From NCBI GenBank assembly GCA_030066295.1, contig JASJBX010000005.1, forward strand, positions 1 through 37,001: 37,001 bases of DNA, in the 5' to 3' direction. The notes under the pieces are model-generated. The model was given only the letters and a program-made list of their open reading frames with translations, was not told where the DNA came from and ran no database searches. This stretch comes from Crocosphaera sp. (GTDB lineage: Bacteria; Cyanobacteriota; Cyanobacteriia; Cyanobacteriales; Microcystaceae). How positions within the stretch are numbered: position 1 is the stretch's first letter; every line of letters begins with the position of its first letter. This document shows, piece after piece, positions 12,819 through 20,868 of this stretch. The position numbers were made by a program, and so were the translations under genes.

Positions 12819-13760
12819 GTGAAGCTAACATCAAACCTTAAACTCTTAGATGAAAAGTTGAGCTTACACCCAACAATGATCAATGATCCCTGTCATGTTT
12901 TATTAATAGAAGATAAACTCGAAAATATTCAGTTATTACAAGATTTATTGTCTCAAAGTCAACATAGTTCTTTAGCCCAAGGTTTGACTTTTCCGATTAC
13001 TTGTGTAACCACGTTACAAGAAAGTTTAGCGTCCCTAGACGCTCATAAGTTTGATGTTATTTTACTGGACTTAGATTTACCGGATAGTCAAGGGGTGGCT
13101 ACCTTAATTAAACTGCGAGAAAAAGTAGCCAATCTGCCGATTATTGTGGAAATGGATGGACAAAGCGAGGGGGCAGTGGTGGAATCTTTTCAATTGGGGG
13201 CTGATGGTTATTTACAGCTAAAAACTCTCGATAGTAACCTTCTAATCCATGAAATTCGTTTAGCCATTGAACGGCAAAAGTATCGGGCTAAAATTAATCA
13301 ACAACAACAGGAAATCCGTCAAGAACAGGAGTTTTCTGACCTAGATTCTTTGATCAAATCCAGTCGAGAAACCAGCGTTACCGCTCGCTTATTCGGGGCT
13401 TATCCCCTGCAAGAAAGTTTACCCGATGTTTTTGATGAATTGGTAGAAAACTACGGAAAATTATTAGACCTAGCTCTCGAACAACGCATCTTCAAAGTAG
13501 ACTATAATCTTTCTGAACAACTACGAACCCTAGGAGAAAAATTAGGCTTTCTCAAAGCAAGTCCTAGAGATGCCATTGAAATTCACACCAAAGTTTTAAA
13601 ACAAAAAAGTCAGGACGTTCCAACGGCGAAAGCTCAAGCTTATGTTGTGGAAGGGAGACTGATGATATTAGAATTAATGGGCTATTTAGCTTCCTTTTAT
13701 CGTAAATATTATATAGGACTAAGTAACATCAACCTTTCTGCTAGAAAAGATTATCGGTAA
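12819..13760 (+). CDS. kaiA3: KaiA3-like clock protein: receiver-like N-terminus plus KaiA-type C-terminus
   Basis: Up to 313 residues (GTG start); the ATG at 12876 gives 294 and may be the true start, six residues before the first strand. Residues about 25-150 read as a receiver domain: acidic pair Glu31-Asp32 and phosphoacceptor-like Asp84 in VILLDLDLPDSQG are kept, but the conserved Thr/Ser is Met112 and the conserved Lys is replaced or shifted. A coiled linker (about 152-172) leads to a C-terminal helical domain (about 195-300) with EIH, then GRLMILELMGYLASFYRKYY, resembling the KaiC-activating and dimerisation domain of KaiA. This chimera matches KaiA3 of Synechocystis 6803, not the standard KaiA pseudoreceiver. 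kaiB3 follows 5 bases later. It should bind KaiC3 and promote its phosphorylation. Confidence 0.82.
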   Translation: MKLTSNLKLLDEKLSLHPTMINDPCHVLLIEDKLENIQLLQDLLSQSQHSSLAQGLTFPITCVTTLQESLASLDAHKFDVILLDLDLPDSQGVATLIKLREKVANLPIIVEMDGQSEGAVVESFQLGADGYLQLKTLDSNLLIHEIRLAIERQKYRAKINQQQQEIRQEQEFSDLDSLIKSSRETSVTARLFGAYPLQESLPDVFDELVENYGKLLDLALEQRIFKVDYNLSEQLRTLGEKLGFLKASPRDAIEIHTKVLKQKSQDVPTAKAQAYVVEGRLMILELMGYLASFYRKYYIGLSNINLSARKDYR

Positions 13761-13765
13761 CTTCT

Positions 13766-14050
13766 ATGAATAAATATCTCCTCAAACTCTATATTACCGG
13801 AAATACCATCAACTCTCAACGGGCAATCGCCAATCTTTTTCGGATCTGTCATCAAGAGTTAAACGACCAGTATACGGTAGAAATTATTGATGTCCTTGAA
13901 CAACCCCAAACTGCCGAACAAGAAAAAATTCTCGTCACCCCCACCCTCATCAAACAGTTACCCCCACCTCTACAACGTATTATCGGGGATATGTCCAACA
14001 CCCAAAAAGTTCTCTTAGGCTTAGATTTAGTTTCCCAAGTTGACAACTAA
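13766..14050 (+). CDS. kaiB3: Clock protein KaiB3-like
   Basis: 94 residues, thioredoxin-like fold-switching clock protein. Hallmarks are LKLYITGNT at the front, EIIDVLEQPQTAEQEKILVT, PTLIKQLPPP and RIIGDMSNTQKVLLGLDL. In the standard oscillator KaiB binds the CI ring of phosphorylated KaiC and sequesters KaiA; KaiB3 does the corresponding job for KaiC3. The protein ends six residues after GLDL and lacks the acidic C-terminal tail of KaiB1 (about 102 residues), one reason to favour KaiB3. The gene starts 5 bases after kaiA3, so the two form one unit. Confidence 0.88.
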   Translation: MNKYLLKLYITGNTINSQRAIANLFRICHQELNDQYTVEIIDVLEQPQTAEQEKILVTPTLIKQLPPPLQRIIGDMSNTQKVLLGLDLVSQVDN

Positions 14051-14170
14051 TCTCAATTTCTTGGCAAGATGAGAAGAAAAAGGCAAAATAAACAATGAAC
14101 CATAAAGGCAGTCGAAGTATAGTTGAGCATAGTCATGTTTTGTCAAACTTAGATACAAAGCGAGTTTAAC

Positions 14171-14198
14171 TTCTGACTTCTGACTTTTGACTTTTGAC
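14171..14198 (+). repeat. Four tandem heptamers TTYTGAC between kaiB3 and kaiC3
   Basis: TTCTGAC occurs twice, then TTTTGAC twice, then a partial TTCT. Short heptameric tandem repeats (STRR type) are common between cyanobacterial genes. The array ends 38 bases before the kaiC3 start, inside the 186-base spacer. Confidence 0.8.
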
Positions 14199-14236
14199 TT
14201 CTACCATAACCCTCTATTCCTTAACAAAAAAAACGG

Positions 14237-15751
14237 ATGACTCCAGAAAACGAACTAGATTATATTGAAAAATTAGAAACCGCCATTCCAGGGTTTGATT
14301 TTTTGTCCGAAGGAGGACTTCCTAAAGGACGGGCCACCTTAGTCGCAGGAACCGCCGGCAGTTCTAAAACCGTTTTTGCTTGTCAGTTTTTAGTTGAAGG
14401 AATTAAACGAGGGGAAAACGGCGTTTTTATAACCTTTGAAGAACCACCCAAAGCTTTACGCCGAAATATGCGAGGGTTTGGCTGGAATATTGCCCAATGG
14501 GAACTCGAACGAAAATGGGCTTTTGTGGATGCCTCTCCCCAACCCGGAGAACCGATGGTGGTGACAGGAGACTACGATCTTGGTGCTTTGATCGCCCGTA
14601 TCGAGTTCGCTATTCGTAAATATAACGTTCAACGGGTGTCGATGGACTCCTTAGGTGCTATTTTTAGCCATTTAAGCGATAGCGCACAAGTTAGAAGCGA
14701 TCTGTTTCGTTTAGCCTCGGCCTTACGAGAATTAGGAGTAACCGCCATTATGACGGCGGAAAGGACGGAAGAATACGGAGAAATTAGTCGGTTTGGGGTA
14801 GAAGAATTTGTGGCCGATAATGTGGTCATTTTACGCAACGTTTTAGCCGATGAAAAGCGTCGTCGTACCATCGAAATTTTGAAATATCGGGGTACGGATC
14901 ACCAAAAAGGAGAATATCCCTTTACCATTGTTCCCGGTCGTGGGGTGGTGATTATTCCCTTATCGGCCATTGAGTTAGAACAAAAATCTTCTAACATTCG
15001 CATCACTTCCGGTAGTGAAGAGTTAGATACCATGTGTGGCGGTGGATTTTTCCGAGACTCCATTATTTTAGTGTCTGGGGCCACCGGAACCGGAAAAACC
15101 TTAATGGTAACGGAATTTATGGCCGGTGGGGTTCTTAACAACGAAAGATGTTTAATTTTTGCCTTTGAAGAAAGCCGAGAACAACTGTTTCGCAACGCCA
15201 CTGGTTGGGGTGTGGATTTTCAAGAAATGGAAAAACAAGGCAAGTTAAAAGTCGTGTGTCGTTATCCGGAAACCACCGGGTTAGAAAATCACCTCATTAA
15301 TATGAAGGAAACCATTGAAACCTTTAAACCTAACCGCGTCGCTGTTGATAGTTTATCAGCCTTGGAACGGGTATCTACCTTAAAAGGATTTCGAGAGTTT
15401 ATTATTGGTTTAACCTCTTTTATTAAACAGCAAGAAATTGGCGGGTTATTCACCTCAACCACTCCCACTTTATTAGGGGGTTCATCCATCACCGAAGCGC
15501 ATATTTCTACCATTACCGACTCCATTATTTTACTGCGCTACGTGGAAATGTATGGGGAAATGCGTCGCGGTGTCACCGTATTAAAAATGCGCGGTTCCAT
15601 GCACGATAAAGATATTCGAGAATTTTCCATCGATAACAAAGGAATGCACATCGGCAAACCCTTCCGCAACGTTACCGGTATTTTATCCGGTTCCCCCATG
15701 TACACGGCCCAAAGCGAAGTGGAACGATTAAGTAACTTATTTGAAGAGTAA
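14237..15751 (+). CDS. kaiC3: Clock ATPase/kinase KaiC3-like
   Basis: 504 residues, a double RecA-like KaiC. CI (1-about 245): P-loop GTAGSSKT (38-45), catalytic Glu pair 68-69, and the EEFVADNVVILRN stretch. CII (about 250-504): P-loop GATGTGKT (281-288), Glu pair 311-312, and AHISTITDSI with Ser424-Thr425 and Thr419, which align to the phosphosites S431/T432/T426 of Synechococcus KaiC. So CII should autophosphorylate. The final FRNVTGILSGSP matches the A-loop where KaiA acts, but the tail after it is short. The CI P-loop has Ser where KaiC1 has Gly before the Lys. Length and neighbours fit KaiC3. It may drive a second oscillator or a metabolic timer beside a KaiABC1 elsewhere in the genome. 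Confidence 0.9.
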   Translation: MTPENELDYIEKLETAIPGFDFLSEGGLPKGRATLVAGTAGSSKTVFACQFLVEGIKRGENGVFITFEEPPKALRRNMRGFGWNIAQWELERKWAFVDASPQPGEPMVVTGDYDLGALIARIEFAIRKYNVQRVSMDSLGAIFSHLSDSAQVRSDLFRLASALRELGVTAIMTAERTEEYGEISRFGVEEFVADNVVILRNVLADEKRRRTIEILKYRGTDHQKGEYPFTIVPGRGVVIIPLSAIELEQKSSNIRITSGSEELDTMCGGGFFRDSIILVSGATGTGKTLMVTEFMAGGVLNNERCLIFAFEESREQLFRNATGWGVDFQEMEKQGKLKVVCRYPETTGLENHLINMKETIETFKPNRVAVDSLSALERVSTLKGFREFIIGLTSFIKQQEIGGLFTSTTPTLLGGSSITEAHISTITDSIILLRYVEMYGEMRRGVTVLKMRGSMHDKDIREFSIDNKGMHIGKPFRNVTGILSGSPMYTAQSEVERLSNLFEE

Positions 15752-15850: not shown

Positions 15851-17035
15851 ATGTCGAAAATAGAAACTAGAACCGAACCCATGGTATTAAACATGGGGCC
15901 TCATCATCCCTCCATGCACGGGGTATTACGTTTGATCGTCACGTTAGACGGAGAGGACGTGGTAGACTGTGAACCCGTGATCGGGTATCTTCATCGGGGG
16001 ATGGAGAAAATTGCAGAAAATCGCACCAACGTCATGTATGTTCCCTATGTCAGTCGTTGGGATTATGCAGCCGGAATGTTCAACGAAGCGATTACGGTTA
16101 ACGCCCCTGAACAATTAGCGGATATTGAAGTTCCTAAACGGGCCCAGTATATTCGGGTGATTATGTTGGAACTCAACCGCATTGCCAACCATTTACTCTG
16201 GTTAGGCCCCTTTTTAGCTGATGTGGGCGCACAAACCCCCTTCTTCTACATTTTCCGCGAACGGGAAATGATTTATGATCTCTGGGAAGCAGCTTCTGGA
16301 ATGCGCTTAATCAATAATAATTACTTCCGTATTGGTGGGGTAGCGGTAGATTTACCCTACGGTTGGATCGACAAATGCGAAGACTTCTGCGATGCGTTTG
16401 ACCCCAAAGTAGACGAATACGAGAAGTTAATCACCAATAACCCCATTTTTCGCCGTCGTGTGGAAGGGATAGGCACGATTACCCGCGATGAAGCCATTAA
16501 CTGGGGGTTATCTGGCCCGATGTTACGGGGTTCCGGGGTTAAATGGGACTTACGTAAGGTAGACCATTACGAATGTTACGATGACTTCGACTGGGAAGTA
16601 CAATGGGAAACCGCAGGGGACTGTTTTGCCCGTTATTTAGTCCGTATTCGGGAAATGCGTGAATCGGTTAAAATCATTCGTCAAGCGTTGAAAGGGATTC
16701 CAGGGGGTCCCTATGAAAACCTGGAAGCAAAACGCATGATGGAAGGGAAAAAGTCCGAATGGAACGATTTTGACTATCAATACATCGCCAAAAAAGTCGC
16801 CCCCACTTTTAAGATTCCTGAAGGGGAACACTATGTGCGTTTAGAAAGCGGTAAAGGAGAATTAGGGATCTTTATTGTCGGTAATAACGATGTCTTCCCC
16901 TGGCGTTGGAAAATTCGCGCCCCAGACTTTAATAATTTACAAATTCTACCCCACCTTCTTAAAGGGGTCAAAGTTGCTGATATTATGGCAATTTTGGGTA
17001 GCATTGATGTCATTATGGGTTCTGTTGATCGTTAA
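15851..17035 (+). CDS. ndhH: NAD(P)H-quinone oxidoreductase subunit H (NDH-1 49 kDa type)
   Basis: 394 residues, the normal length for cyanobacterial NdhH. The start [20 protein letters not shown] and [20 protein letters not shown] are diagnostic of the 49 kDa/NuoD family, which forms part of the quinone-binding pocket in the peripheral arm of thylakoid NDH-1. This complex serves respiration, cyclic electron flow and CO2 uptake. The C-terminus IMGSVDR is typical and complete. It stands alone, 99 bases after kaiC3, and a hairpin terminator follows at 17065. Confidence 0.97.
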
Positions 17036-17129: not shown

Positions 17130-17498
17130 ATGAATGAACCGGTGACCGTTAAATACTCCTTAGAAGATATCCTCAAAAAGATCGATGATAAACTTGATAG
17201 AATGGAAGAAGCTTCTACCCAAAGATTTGAAAAGTTGGAATCCAAGTTAGAGAGTAACCAAAGAGACTTTGAACAGAAATTAGATAGTTTTCAGAGAGAT
17301 GTTAATCAAAAATTAGATAGTCTCCAAAAAGATGTTACTGATCTAAAAGTTGGACAAGCAAAGCTAGAAGAAAAAGTAGAAGGTTTAACCAAAAGATTAG
17401 ATTATCAAGAGTTCATTAATCGTGGGGTTATTATTAGTTTGCTTGCTGCTGTCTTGGGAAGTTTAGCTAAAATGTTGGGATTTATTGGCAATCACTAA
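17130..17498 (+). CDS. Coiled-coil protein with C-terminal membrane helix, tandem copy 1 (122 residues)
   Basis: A charged N-terminal part (MNEPVTVKYSLEDILKKIDD) leads into a long coiled coil (about 10-95), and one C-terminal hydrophobic helix follows (about 97-119, VIISLLAAVLGSLAKMLGFI), so the protein is probably tail-anchored with the coil in the cytoplasm. Residues 44-65 are two units of an 11-residue repeat (QRDFEQKLDSF, QRDVNQKLDSL). The layout recalls Borrelia Bdr and DUF1640-type proteins, but no firm family is claimed. The C-terminal segment is nearly identical in all three copies, so membrane anchoring is probably under selection. The function is unknown; self-assembly or scaffolding would fit. 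Confidence 0.8.
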   Translation: MNEPVTVKYSLEDILKKIDDKLDRMEEASTQRFEKLESKLESNQRDFEQKLDSFQRDVNQKLDSLQKDVTDLKVGQAKLEEKVEGLTKRLDYQEFINRGVIISLLAAVLGSLAKMLGFIGNH

Positions 17499-17502
17499 AT
17501 GC

Positions 17503-17508
17503 TATAAT
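17503..17508 (+). promoter_or_regulatory. Candidate -10 box (TATAAT) of coiled-coil copy 2
   Basis: TATAAT lies 31 bases before the ATG at 17539, in a 40-base spacer beginning ATGCTATAATTAATAGT. The same box at the same distance precedes copy 3. Confidence 0.4.
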
Positions 17509-17538
17509 TAATAGTCTTAATAGATAGGAATTGAATCC

Positions 17539-17940
17539 ATGAATGAACCGGTGACAGTTAAATATTCTTTGGAAGATATCCTTAAAAAGATCGATGATAA
17601 ACTTGATAGAATGGAAGAAGCTTCTACTCAACGATTTGAAAAGCTGGAATCAAAGTTAGAGAGTAACCAAAGAGACTTTGAACAGAAATTAGATACTCTC
17701 CAAAAAGATGTTAATCAGAAATTAGATAGTTTCCAGAGAGATGTTAATCAAAAATTAGCTACTCTCCAAAAAGATGTAACAGACTTAAAAGGTGGACAGG
17801 CAAAACTAGAGGAAAACGTGGAGGGTTTAACCAAACGATTAGATTATCAAGAGTTTATTAATCGTGGGGTAGTTATTGGTTTAATTGTTGCTTTATTAGG
17901 GGGTTTGGCTAAAATGTTAGGATTTATTGGTAATTCTTAG
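17539..17940 (+). CDS. Coiled-coil protein with C-terminal membrane helix, tandem copy 2 (133 residues)
   Basis: Nearly the same protein as copy 1, with the same N-terminal 43 residues apart from silent changes in the DNA. Here the repeat block is three 11-residue units (residues 44-76: QRDFEQKLDTL, QKDVNQKLDSF, QRDVNQKLATL) instead of two, which accounts exactly for the 11-residue length difference. The C-terminal helix (VVIGLIVALLGGLAKMLGFI) is more Gly-rich than in copy 1. It is the longest of the three and could differ in coil length while keeping the same end structures, so mixed oligomers are possible. Confidence 0.8.
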   Translation: MNEPVTVKYSLEDILKKIDDKLDRMEEASTQRFEKLESKLESNQRDFEQKLDTLQKDVNQKLDSFQRDVNQKLATLQKDVTDLKGGQAKLEENVEGLTKRLDYQEFINRGVVIGLIVALLGGLAKMLGFIGNS

Positions 17941-17944
17941 ATGC

Positions 17945-17950
17945 TATAAT
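17945..17950 (+). promoter_or_regulatory. Candidate -10 box (TATAAT) of coiled-coil copy 3
   Basis: TATAAT lies 31 bases before the ATG at 17981. The 40-base spacer 17941-17980 starts with the same 17 bases as the spacer before copy 2, so spacer and gene were duplicated together. Confidence 0.4.
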
Positions 17951-17980
17951 TAATAGTATTAATTGATAACAGTTTAAACT

Positions 17981-18316
17981 ATGAATGAACAAGTAACAGT
18001 TAAATATTCTTTGGAAGATATACTCAAAAAGATCGATGATAAACTCGATAAAATGGAAGAAGCTTCTAGTAAAAGATTTGAAAAGCTGGAATCAAAGTTA
18101 GAGAGTAATCAAAAAGATGTTAATCAGAAATTGGACACTTTGCAAAAAGATGTAACAGACTTAAAAGTAGGACAAGCAAAACTCGAAGAAAAAGTCGATG
18201 GTTTAGGAAAAAGATTAGATTATCAAGAGTTCATTAATCGTGGGGTTATCATTGGTTTGCTTGCTGCTTTGTTAGGAGGGTTAGCTAAAATGTTGGGATT
18301 TATTGGTAATTCTTAG
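17981..18316 (+). CDS. Coiled-coil protein with C-terminal membrane helix, tandem copy 3 (111 residues)
   Basis: Third copy, with one 11-residue unit only (44-54, QKDVNQKLDTL). Its N-terminus differs slightly (MNEQVTVKYS, DKMEEASSKRF), while the C-terminal FINRGVIIGLLAALLGGLAK is close to the other two. Lengths 111, 122 and 133 are thus a strict series in steps of 11. A convergent methylase gene ends 75 bases downstream, and that AT-rich gap shows no strong terminator. Confidence 0.8.
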   Translation: MNEQVTVKYSLEDILKKIDDKLDKMEEASSKRFEKLESKLESNQKDVNQKLDTLQKDVTDLKVGQAKLEEKVDGLGKRLDYQEFINRGVIIGLLAALLGGLAKMLGFIGNS

Positions 18317-18391: not shown

Positions 18392-19369
18392 CTAATAATT
18401 AGTAATTACAATCTCTCTTATCTTACCCCGTTTATTACCTTTAGAATTAATCATCCTTGATGCTAAAATACGATTAATATTAAAATCCTTATATAACTCA
18501 TCAAAAAAAGGATCATCGACATAATTAGTAGGATCTGAATTACTCAACAGTTGTAATGCACCTTGATTAGACATTTTTACAAATATATCTCTTAATCTTT
18601 TTTGTTCATTATCGTTAAATTCTAAAGAACTATAGGCATTAAAATTTGCCGTTTCACTAATGGGACGATAGGGAGGATCATAATAAATAAACGTTGATTC
18701 ATTAGCATAATTAACAACTTCTGCAAAATCGGTGTGTTTGATTTCAGCAATTTTAAATGCTTGATGAACAGCTAGTAAATTATCTTTGTTCAGTATTTTA
18801 GGATTTTTATAACGCCCCATAGGTACATTAAAACATCCTTTACTATTGACTCGATATAACCCATTAAAACAAGTTTTATTCAAAAATATTGTACAAGCTG
18901 CTCGTTTTACCCACTCTTGTCTATAATTATTAGCATCAGTTTGTTTATCAAACGTATTATAATTTTCTCTCACTTGATAATATAATTCTTTTCTTTTTTC
19001 AGTATCTAAGCCAAGATATTCACCTTCTAAAATCGATAATTCTTCAATGAGATTACCGACATCATTTTGAATCACCTTGTAAAGAATAATTAATTCGGGA
19101 TTTTTGTCAAAAAGATAAGCTTTCTCAATTTTAAAGTTAGAATAAATATCAAAAAACACCGCACCACCCCCAAAAAAAGGCTCGATGTAAGTTATAATTT
19201 TACTTTGTTTAAGTTGTTGAGGATATTGTTGTTTTATTGCTGGCAATAATTGGGTTTTTCCGCCAGCCCATTTCAGTATAGGAGACGCTTTAATCCTATC
19301 TTGATGCGTACAACTTGGGAAAAGAGATAACTGTTTAATTGGCTGAGAGTTTACCTGATAATTAATCAT
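18392..19369 (-). CDS. dam: DNA adenine-N6 methyltransferase, Dam/D12 class
   Basis: 325 residues, slightly longer than E. coli Dam (278) because of a 25-residue N-terminal lead. Motifs in order: PILKWAGGKTQLLPAI (30-45, cofactor side), YIEPFFGGGAVFFD (61-74), FLNKTCFNGLYRVNSKG (162-178, DNA recognition region) and the catalytic DPPY (231-234). These point to an alpha-class methylase, most likely of GATC. No restriction enzyme gene is adjacent, so it is probably an orphan like the GATC methylase DmtA of Anabaena. GATC lies inside every HIP1 site. A TnpB element ends within about 35 bases upstream of its start, so its native promoter may have been displaced. Confidence 0.9.
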   Translation of the reverse strand: MINYQVNSQPIKQLSLFPSCTHQDRIKASPILKWAGGKTQLLPAIKQQYPQQLKQSKIITYIEPFFGGGAVFFDIYSNFKIEKAYLFDKNPELIILYKVIQNDVGNLIEELSILEGEYLGLDTEKRKELYYQVRENYNTFDKQTDANNYRQEWVKRAACTIFLNKTCFNGLYRVNSKGCFNVPMGRYKNPKILNKDNLLAVHQAFKIAEIKHTDFAEVVNYANESTFIYYDPPYRPISETANFNAYSSLEFNDNEQKRLRDIFVKMSNQGALQLLSNSDPTNYVDDPFFDELYKDFNINRILASRMINSKGNKRGKIREIVITNY

Positions 19370-19406
19370 TTATTTTTATCAATTATGCTGTCAAGACCTC
19401 TATGAA

Positions 19407-20777
19407 CTACCCCAACTTTTGAGAAGTTGGGGTTTCCAAATGCCCCAAACTTTTCTGATTTTGTTGAGATTTTTGTCGCTTCATTTCCCCAAGTTGCTTC
19501 ATAGATCCCGTATGTTTACGATTCTTAGAAGTAGAGCTTATGAGATCCACGATTTCGAGGTGAGTTCCTAACCCCGGTTGCTGATAGGTAGCAACATTAT
19601 ACATGACCATCACACTGGATTTATCTCGTCCATTTTCAAAATGACAATGATTACAGACATGATAACGATTGGACAAATTAGCCCAATCTTTGTGAACAGT
19701 TCCACAGTTTGGACAACGTTGTGAAGGTTTAATTTTCCTAGTAGGAAGAAATAAAACTAAACCACCTTTGGCTTCAATTTTATAGGTAATCATTTTGTTG
19801 AGAGTGCCAAAACCTACGTCTAAAATTGACTTATTAAGTCCAGCTTTTTGACGTTTTCTTTGACTACCTGGTTTAGCTTTACGAGTCATCTTTTTAGTTT
19901 CTAACTTCTCCGTAACCACGATGTCATAACGACGAGAAATATCTGTAGTTACGTGATGCTGCCAATTTTTTCTTTGTTCAGCTACTTTTCTTTGAAGTTT
20001 AGAAACTTGCTTTCTAGCTTTTTTCCAACGTTTAGAAGCTTTGATTTTTTTCTGGTAGTTAGGGCATCTTTTCCTCCTTAGTTTTTTTGATGCCGACTTG
20101 ATCTTTTTCTGGGACCTAAGAGTAAATCTTTGATTTTCTATTTCTAGAAATTCCTGCCCATTGTAGGCGGTTAAGACCGTTTCAGTTCCTAAATCAATGG
20201 ATAACATGGATTCATACTTAAGATCACTATCCGACCCAAATTTTCTATTAGGAACCTCAATATTAACCGTAAAACTTGCGAACCATTGATTGAGATAAGG
20301 CTTATAAATAATGGTTAAAGTTGTGGGAGTTCCCCATTGTTTAGCCTGTCCCCTCATTCTGATAGTTATGCCTAAATCTCTCAAACGAACTTGACCATGT
20401 TTACCTTCGGTCAAAGCATTCCATCCACTATGTCCTGGATAAGTCCAACCTGAGTAATTCCGAATAGATTTGAAGAGTGGTTTTTGAGATAAACTTTTGA
20501 TAAAGCGATTATAACTTAAGTCCACTCTTTTGAGAGTAGCTTGTAGGGTTTGAGAGTTTAGTTTTTTATACTCTGGCCAGCATTCTTTGAAAGCAGGTAA
20601 AGCATTTTGTTGTTGGAGATAAGTAACAGACTTTGACCAGTATTGATACTCAGTTTTTCGGTGAGAAATAGCTGCGTTATAGAGATAACAATGCAACCGT
20701 CTAGCCTCAAATAGCTTTGACGTTTGAGACTTATTAGGATATAGTCGAAATGTATATCGTCTAATAACAGTAAGCAT
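19407..20777 (-). CDS. tnpB: TnpB RNA-guided endonuclease
   Basis: 456 residues from ATG at 20777; an upstream start at 20810 adds 11 residues that precede the family's usual beginning MLTVIRRYTFRLYPNKSQ. RuvC residues are all present (numbering of the longer form): Asp206 in SIDLGTETV, Glu301 in VVTEKLETKKM and Asp396 in ENGRDKSS. A CPNC...CNHC zinc finger (Cys 366, 369, 386, 389) is intact. So it could be an active nuclease, guided by RNA from the element's right end. The last 50 residues are Lys/Gln/Ser-rich and overlap the guide RNA scaffold, as is usual. It lies divergent to ddl and upstream of dam. Confidence 0.9.
   Translation of the reverse strand: MLTVIRRYTFRLYPNKSQTSKLFEARRLHCYLYNAAISHRKTEYQYWSKSVTYLQQQNALPAFKECWPEYKKLNSQTLQATLKRVDLSYNRFIKSLSQKPLFKSIRNYSGWTYPGHSGWNALTEGKHGQVRLRDLGITIRMRGQAKQWGTPTTLTIIYKPYLNQWFASFTVNIEVPNRKFGSDSDLKYESMLSIDLGTETVLTAYNGQEFLEIENQRFTLRSQKKIKSASKKLRRKRCPNYQKKIKASKRWKKARKQVSKLQRKVAEQRKNWQHHVTTDISRRYDIVVTEKLETKKMTRKAKPGSQRKRQKAGLNKSILDVGFGTLNKMITYKIEAKGGLVLFLPTRKIKPSQRCPNCGTVHKDWANLSNRYHVCNHCHFENGRDKSSVMVMYNVATYQQPGLGTHLEIVDLISSTSKNRKHTGSMKQLGEMKRQKSQQNQKSLGHLETPTSQKLG
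19410..19432 (-). ncRNA. Right-end hairpin and likely 3' part of the TnpB guide (omega) RNA
   Basis: CCCCAACTT (19410-19418) pairs perfectly with AAGTTGGGG (19424-19432) around a five-base loop, overlapping the last codons of tnpB. In this family the 3' end of the tnpB transcript, ending in such a hairpin, forms the guide scaffold, and the DNA just outside the element supplies the guide. Here the guide would start near 19402 and read ATAGAGGTCTTGACAG. The extent of the scaffold upstream is not determined. Confidence 0.55.
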
Positions 20778-20868
20778 TGTAATTTTAGAAGTGGTCAAAG
20801 AATATATCAAACATCAATCAGGAGGACTAGAAACTAAGAAATAAGGACGCTACGCAGTTGATTTATTG

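Follow-up and report, generated by a model that had tools for sequence, protein, structure and literature searches.

In Synechocystis sp. PCC 6803, a chimeric KaiA3 encoded upstream of kaiB3 works with a KaiC of the KaiC3 class in an oscillator separate from the standard clock, and a KaiC3 phosphorylation cycle of about 24 h has been reported for KaiA3B3C3 (PMC11372060). A contiguous kaiA3B3C3 run is the usual published arrangement, to which Synechocystis is an exception (PMC11372060). Here we describe such a run in the window, that is, the whole stretch of 37,001 nucleotides analysed, taken from contig JASJBX010000005.1 of a Crocosphaera sp. genome assembly (4.4 Mb, 263 contigs, 91% complete). 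Three co-directional, adjoining genes at 12819/12876-15751 encode a protein of 313 or 294 amino acids (aa), a 94-aa KaiB and a 504-aa KaiC. Judged from sequence and modelled structure, these are KaiA3-KaiB3-KaiC3 oscillator genes, a further member of the system of Köbler et al. 2024 (PMC11372060). With a probability of roughly 0.8, the cluster represents a second, KaiC3-based oscillator beside KaiABC, in which the receiver domain of KaiA3 is not an intact phospho-receiver and is most likely a pseudo-receiver. The features concerned are as follows, with the evidence for each in brackets.

12876..13760, plus strand: kaiA3, (pseudo-)receiver and KaiA-like domain, 294 aa (Pfam, relatives' alignment, residue table, structure models).
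12909..12914, plus strand: codons of the acidic pair E12-D13, present (receiver residue table).
13068..13070, plus strand: codon of the acceptor Asp, D65, present (receiver residue table).
13152..13154, plus strand: codon of M93, at the position of Thr/Ser in active receivers (receiver residue table).
13218..13220, plus strand: codon of L115, at the position of Lys in active receivers (receiver residue table).
13386..13757, plus strand: KaiA-like helical domain of KaiA3 (profile search, profile-profile comparison, structure model).
13766..14050, plus strand: kaiB3, 94 aa, no acidic tail (Pfam PF07689, conserved residues).
14237..15751, plus strand: kaiC3, 504 aa, with catalytic E68-E69 and E311-E312 and phosphosites S424/T425 (NCBIfam, tree, conserved residues).

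The kaiA3 start is more likely ATG 12876 than GTG 12819, which would add 19 aa: relatives align from that Met, which in several of them is closely preceded by a stop, and with this start the acceptor Asp becomes residue 65, as published for Synechocystis (PMC11372060). The five active-site positions of the receiver are numbered from the ATG; from the GTG they would read E31, D32, D84, M112 and L134. The spacing between kaiA3 and kaiB3 is 5 bp.

In a tree of 50 KaiC rows, the window KaiC lies inside a 28-row KaiC3 clade that includes Synechocystis (PCC 7338) and has a support of 99 in the Shimodaira-Hasegawa-like approximate likelihood ratio test (SH-aLRT), the genome's other KaiC groups with KaiC1 rows, and four KaiC2-like rows stand apart; this was a quick tree without bootstrap, its rows had been grouped beforehand by their identity to the query, and some long branches meet in it. 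The Synechocystis genome in this set, G218, matches PCC 7338 at 100% along 6 kb of plasmid sequence. A separate standard kaiABC cluster is present in the same genome on contig C241, where KaiA scores 216 bits with PF07688, over the cut-off, and KaiC and KaiB are each 55% identical to their window counterparts. No KaiC2-type match was found in this 91%-complete genome. The window KaiB matches PF07689 (E=6.2e-30) and falls under both NCBIfam KaiB cut-offs (108.9 versus 110 and 102.7 versus 145.3). Its fold-switch residues are presumably K54, G85 and D87, placed by the motif of canonical KaiB. Each of these equals the KaiB3 number in PMC6989803 minus 3. KaiC3 is above both NCBIfam KaiC cut-offs (748 and 647 bits), and its E68/E69, E311/E312 and S424/T425 each correspond to the published Synechocystis KaiC3 position plus 1 (PMC6989803, PMC11372060). 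The CI Walker A motif of this kaiC (window 14348-14371) reads GTAGS[A/S]KT in 27 of the 28 KaiC3-class rows, the remaining, partial row being without the region, and GTSG[T/S]GKT in 18/18 KaiC1-class rows. In the KaiC3 class another residue stands in place of the P-loop glycine that precedes the Lys.

The first protein combines two domains. Residues 27-146 match Response_reg (PF00072, E=6.4e-13), and the model of the full-length protein has alternating strands and helices there, with receivers as Foldseek matches. The C-terminal domain was modelled with a predicted local distance difference test (pLDDT) score of 84 and a predicted template modelling (pTM) score of 0.76, and its top six PDB matches in Foldseek are all KaiA C-terminal domains, the best being 1v2z (template modelling score 0.71 by target length). 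Profile-profile comparison (hhalign) of the KaiA3 C-domain with 29 canonical KaiA C-domains gave 63% (E 7e-5), with probabilities of 0.5 and 1% in two cross-domain controls, and the receiver matched the canonical KaiA pseudo-receiver weakly (28%). The full-length model is weaker (pTM 0.51), with receivers ranked first by Foldseek and KaiA at rank 41. The C-terminal domain is also the best conserved part of KaiA3, with a mean column entropy of 1.08 versus 1.88 for the receiver. Taken together, the place of KaiC in the KaiC3 clade, the KaiA fold of the first protein and the separate standard kaiABC assign the window cluster to the KaiA3B3C3 system. Three points weigh on the other side: the KaiA3 score with PF07688 is 14.6 bits, below the cut-off of 22.2; the Foldseek E values for the KaiA fold are modest (0.06-0.15, 0.06 for 1v2z, none <0.001); and the KaiB tree places the window KaiB on the side of KaiA3-adjoining KaiB rather than KaiB1 with a weak support of just 75.

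Two other identities can be set against this one. Gene order and protein families alike would allow the cluster to be an ordinary kaiABC that has diverged and serves as the organism's main clock; the second kaiABC on C241, with its PF07688-recognized KaiA and its 55% identical KaiC, and the KaiC tree led us to discard this reading, which is highly improbable. The first gene could also be a plain response regulator that merely adjoins kaiB and kaiC. This is what automatic annotation would probably see, as the earlier note on this DNA had foreseen, since the receiver is the sole Pfam match over its cut-off and no NCBIfam model passes its own among the matches listed (25 of 83). Yet the C-terminal domain is the better conserved one and models as KaiA, and kaiB adjoins kaiA3 in all 67 intact cases, one of them (L034) with an interrupted kaiB; the plain-regulator reading has been discarded too and retains hardly any likelihood. 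The earlier note had proposed a non-standard kaiA3-kaiB3-kaiC3 cluster on the model of Synechocystis 6803, with three contiguous genes in order, a KaiA-like helical C-terminus in the first protein, a KaiB without an acidic tail and a KaiC of 504 residues, all of which agrees with the present results and, as to precedent and contiguity, with PMC11372060. The checks it suggested gave the same picture: structure prediction returned a KaiA fold, the genome search found a standard kaiABC, and KaiC grouped with KaiC3 and not with the genome's own KaiC1; the KaiB phylogeny pointed in the same direction with weak support.

An active receiver has an acidic pair, an Asp, a Thr/Ser and a Lys, and the absence of any one makes it a pseudo-receiver (PMC12632262). 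In the window KaiA3 these positions are E12, D13, D65, M93 and L115; the set is incomplete, and by this definition the encoded domain is a pseudo-receiver. The earlier reading of the N-terminus as a receiver is thus borne out for the fold family, the ED pair and the acceptor Asp, and fails at the Met in place of Thr/Ser and the Leu in place of Lys. We tabulated these residues in 67 intact KaiA3 proteins, 66 from surveyed genomes and one from a Calditrichia contig; left out were two reduced-genome remnants without a receiver (L044, L160), a gene split by a frameshift (L154) and G460, whose match scores equal those of G445. Overall, the Asp is present in 44, the Thr/Ser in 53, the Lys in 29, the acidic pair in 58 and all five residues in 21. 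The window's family (f1; 35 rows, 11 genera) has the Lys in none, the Thr/Ser in 25, the Asp in 18, the acidic pair in 34 and all five in none, whereas the 32 rows outside it have the Lys in 29 and all five in 21. The Thr/Ser position is lost in 8/8 KaiA3 of the window's genus, and Leu occupies the Lys position in 5/5 rows of the genus that includes Synechocystis PCC 7338 (g2). KaiA3 of PCC 7338 has 299 aa, equal to the published length (PMC11372060), with Asp at 65 by count and Ser at the Thr/Ser position. The Lys loss extends to the five Synechocystis-genus genomes sampled, which calls into question the printed description of a 'genuine receiver'.

In a tree built without the five columns, the family forms one clade (support 98). 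The Lys column changes three times on the KaiA3 tree, one of these changes being a loss at the base of f1, as compared with eight inferred changes for Asp and five for Thr/Ser. The alignment is free of gaps in every row between G127 and D138, the columns on either side of the Lys, and a second receiver protein from the Calditrichia contig (L056), aligned alongside, has Lys in this column. The receiver domain is under purifying selection: over 28 pairs in the window's genus, omega is 0.136 for the receiver and 0.091 for the KaiA-like domain, rough values as the synonymous divergence (dS) averages ~1.1, near saturation. An omega of 0.136 argues that the receiver is not simply decaying.

The passages of PMC11372060 and PMC13421787 examined name no cognate kinase of KaiA3. 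We mapped the genes of 53 loci and scanned for kinases with a profile seeded with the genome's SasA (E<=1e-4), which unusual kinases could escape; flanks were too short for a kinase call in L041, L155, L159, L146 and L152, and the frameshifted L207 was mapped but stands outside the 47-row kinase test. In 8 of the 53 loci, the kai run has a histidine kinase gene of the same direction at its edge: four of the genus Geminocystis (g33), ordered kaiA3-kaiB3-kinase; three of the Stanieria-type family (f11), ordered kaiA3-kaiB-kaiC-kinase, two of which also have a kinase just upstream; and the Calditrichia locus L056. Plasmid sequence ties G562 of g33 to Geminocystis NIES-3708 and G479 of f11 to Stanieria cyanosphaera PCC 7437. 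All eight have the five receiver residues, and none of the 24 mapped f1 loci has a kai-bordering kinase; in L029, L210 and L213 of that family, kinases lie several genes off, in two of these loci on the opposite strand. Kinase linkage accompanying an intact receiver is suggestive. Of the 3 independent pairs on supported branches, on average 1.9 agree with expectation, 0 disagree and 1.1 show no difference, and statistical proof failed, as a sign test with 3 contrasts cannot reach 0.05. Among the 47 rows with enough flank, 16 have all five residues, and 8 of these 16 have no linked kinase.

The Geminocystis kinase is a HisKA-HATPase protein; two of the four cases also match GAF weakly (0.001, 0.01), the other two not at all. 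At E<=1e-20, each of these genomes contains this one full-length match and no second. An orthologue in genome G424 has Cys at 19 and 35, and the Cys19 equivalent is present in 4/4 of the Geminocystis proteins. By these features the kaiA3-linked kinase of Geminocystis is the single orthologue of Hik2, the chloroplast sensor kinase (CSK) homologue, although no Hik2-named model was among the NCBIfam matches listed (25). Cys19 is an iron-sulfur ligand of Synechocystis Hik2, in which C35 was also mutated, and Hik2 is reported to sense plastoquinone (PMC6949291) and to phosphorylate the NarL-type regulator Rre1. A paper that names both KaiA3 and Hik2 draws no link between them in the places examined (12 of 14). 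The Stanieria-type kinases are different, PAS-containing proteins. Measured from the stop to the first in-frame ATG, the gaps are 184, 224, 121 and 124 bp from kaiB3 to the Geminocystis kinase, which does not imply co-transcription, and 24, 24 and 60 bp from kaiC to the Stanieria-type kinase. A KaiB domain is absent at E<=0.01 from the 10 kinases scanned (four Geminocystis, five Stanieria-type and one from L056); they are therefore not copies of SasA, and a SasA-type output kinase was rejected, while an output role by a non-SasA route may apply. Two further oddities were seen at mapped loci: a single-receiver gene right after kaiA3-kaiB-kaiC in L155 (an f10 genome) and, read by eye, a kaiB3 broken by a short insertion with a stop in L034 (4435-4846) of a g33 genome.

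By homology, the oscillator core would work as in Synechocystis, the KaiA3, KaiB3 and KaiC3 biochemistry of which is reported in PMC11372060, and our confidence here is high. A KaiA3 dimer would stimulate KaiC3 autophosphorylation at S424/T425 via its C-terminal helical domain, and KaiB3 would bind KaiC3, recruit KaiA3 and promote dephosphorylation, giving a roughly daily KaiC3 phosphorylation cycle coupled to the main clock. On the input side, D65 and the acidic pair are retained, and the Thr/Ser and Lys that would hold the phosphoryl group are replaced by Met and Leu. The N-terminal half would then serve as a pseudo-receiver that docks a partner or binds a ligand, a state reached convergently with canonical KaiA. 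Canonical KaiA is reported to bind quinone. Because the receiver stays under purifying selection, a function without an orthodox phosphorelay is the most likely one, and we hold with moderate confidence that the input in the window organism is probably of this kind. Most KaiA3 outside f1 retain an intact receiver, in some genomes with a cluster-linked histidine kinase gene, and an ancestral kinase input, perhaps Hik2 in some lineages, can be imagined. Quite tentatively, the ancestral KaiA3 may have been a genuine response regulator through which a two-component signal (plastoquinone redox via Hik2/CSK in some lineages) reached the KaiC3 clock; the Lys would have been lost once at the root of the family of Crocosphaera, Synechocystis and, by traits, Microcystis, and the pseudo-receiver that followed would be a second, independent evolution of the canonical KaiA state. 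We give this history less than an even chance. If true, the KaiA3 studied at the bench belongs to a lineage that abandoned the phosphorelay.

The pseudo-receiver reading has to be weighed against two others. D65 might still be phosphorylated by an unlinked histidine kinase, with Met and Leu tolerated or K116 taking over, so that the input is an ordinary phosphorelay. Several points lean this way and tell against a pseudo-receiver. A Lys lies one residue past the lost position in 16 of the 35 family members, including the window (K116), and could partly substitute; a substitution at T or K is not necessarily fatal to phosphorylation (PMC12632262); and since D65 is kept in 18/35, including the window together with the acidic pair, weak phosphotransfer to the window D65 is possible. 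A kinase input has been proposed as a possibility (PMC11372060), and the receiver of Synechocystis is described as genuine in a 2026 review (PMC13421787). A search of 19 family genomes found Hik2 in 18; the sole miss, at E<=1e-30, is the window's own 91%-complete genome and may reflect a gap. However, the Lys is missing in 35/35 family members and the Thr/Ser as well in 8/8 of the genus, none of the mapped family loci has a cluster-linked kinase, and the Asp itself is lost in 17/35, so that the family at large can do without it; we consider an ordinary phosphorelay rather unlikely. That the receiver half is decaying and functionless, with the KaiA-like domain alone mattering, would agree with active-site residues having been lost step by step within the family and with the higher entropy and omega of the receiver. 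Yet the receiver is retained in 67/67 intact genes and its omega in the genus is well under 1, which makes decay improbable.

A KaiA3 C-domain match, remnants counted, was found in 19/388 genomes of the class set, 67/388 of the order set and 37/50 of the family set, the sets overlapping. The presence of kaiB alongside every intact kaiA3 argues that the arrangement is not due to chance. The closest of 10 named relatives is a metagenome-assembled genome (MAG) labelled Crocosphaera sp. MO_188.B44 (KaiA3 89%). A contig of Crocosphaera watsonii WH 8501 (L050) carries kaiA3-kaiB3-kaiC3, while a 2025 proteome preprint on this strain gives its kai genes as one kaiA, one kaiB and two kaiC (PMC12265555), an instance of the annotation problem that had been anticipated. 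In the genus of Rippkaea orientalis PCC 8801, reduced genomes (2.5-3.1 Mb: G384, G422, G354, G423), which by size and genus are probably those of diatom endosymbionts, have only kaiA3 or kaiC3 remnants, or none: kaiA3 at L044:6819-7241 and L160:4295-4576, and a stop-ridden kaiC3 at L251:982-1407. Upstream sequence with 82% identity to the R. orientalis kaiA3 flank survives in three of them, which argues for loss of kai3 in place, and KaiC1 is retained in both reduced genomes searched for KaiC (G384, G354). On one contig of one Calditrichia MAG (L056:218-12734), a kinase and a receiver precede a pair of kai clusters in tandem, which together encode five KaiB, two KaiC and two proteins of the receiver-KaiA type, and two more genes of the PAS/kinase type follow; the first receiver-KaiA-type protein is just above the Pfam KaiA cut-off (22.7 versus 22.2 bits), and a literature search for KaiC in Calditrich- taxa found nothing.

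Around the window cluster, the gap between kaiB3 and kaiC3 holds a short degenerate repeat of the TTCTGAC/TTTTGAC type (14169-14202). Downstream of kaiC3 lies a neighbour for which membership of the system is not implied:

15851..17035, plus strand: ndhH, NAD(P)H-quinone oxidoreductase subunit H (3' of kaiC3).

This gene follows kaiC3 in 7/7 mapped loci of the window's genus (in L047 with an extra open reading frame between) and was seen in no other locus among the 53. Three tandem, closely similar coiled-coil-like reading frames (122, 133 and 111 aa) at 17130-18316 match no Pfam family above cut-off, and a D12-class adenine methyltransferase gene and a TnpB-family gene occupy the minus strand at 18392-20810.

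Unicellular nitrogen fixers of the Crocosphaera lineage, which separate photosynthesis and nitrogen fixation by time of day, possess the KaiA3B3C3 oscillator as a second one; neither kaiA3 nor kaiB3 is named in the searched text of two recent papers on the clock or proteome in such organisms. A phosphate input to the window's KaiC3 clock is doubtful, as its receiver lacks phosphate-holding residues. The main text of PMC11372060 contains neither 'lysine' nor 'threonine', and no description of the missing KaiA3 receiver residues was found in the literature searched, in which the 2026 review (PMC13421787) was covered for KaiA3, KaiC3 and Hik2 only. Clusters of the Geminocystis and Stanieria types, with a kinase gene beside kaiA3 or kaiC, offer candidate kinases for phosphotransfer testing.

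Among the known systems, canonical KaiABC of Synechococcus elongatus shares with the window the gene order, the C-terminal KaiA fold and a receiver-like N-terminus without the phosphotransfer residues. It differs in that the window KaiA3 is under the Pfam KaiA cut-off, its receiver is recognizable by Pfam and has the Asp, its KaiC is of another class and the N-terminal domains match weakly as profiles. The Geminocystis kaiA3-kaiB3-hik2 loci have orthologous KaiA3 and KaiB3, but their five receiver residues are intact, the Hik2/CSK-type kinase gene is directly downstream and kaiC3 lies elsewhere. Synechocystis sp. PCC 6803 has in common with the window a chimeric KaiA3 upstream of kaiB3, a KaiC of the KaiC3 class, a standard kaiABC alongside and the acceptor Asp at 65 (PMC11372060). 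Unlike in Synechocystis, kaiC3 is contiguous in the window, its genome gave no KaiC2-type match, and Met stands at the Thr/Ser position where PCC 7338 has Ser; the Lys would be missing in both alike if PCC 6803 resembles its five sampled congeners. The KaiA3B3C3 system itself is already known, and what the window adds to it is a Crocosphaera-like genome and an altered receiver.

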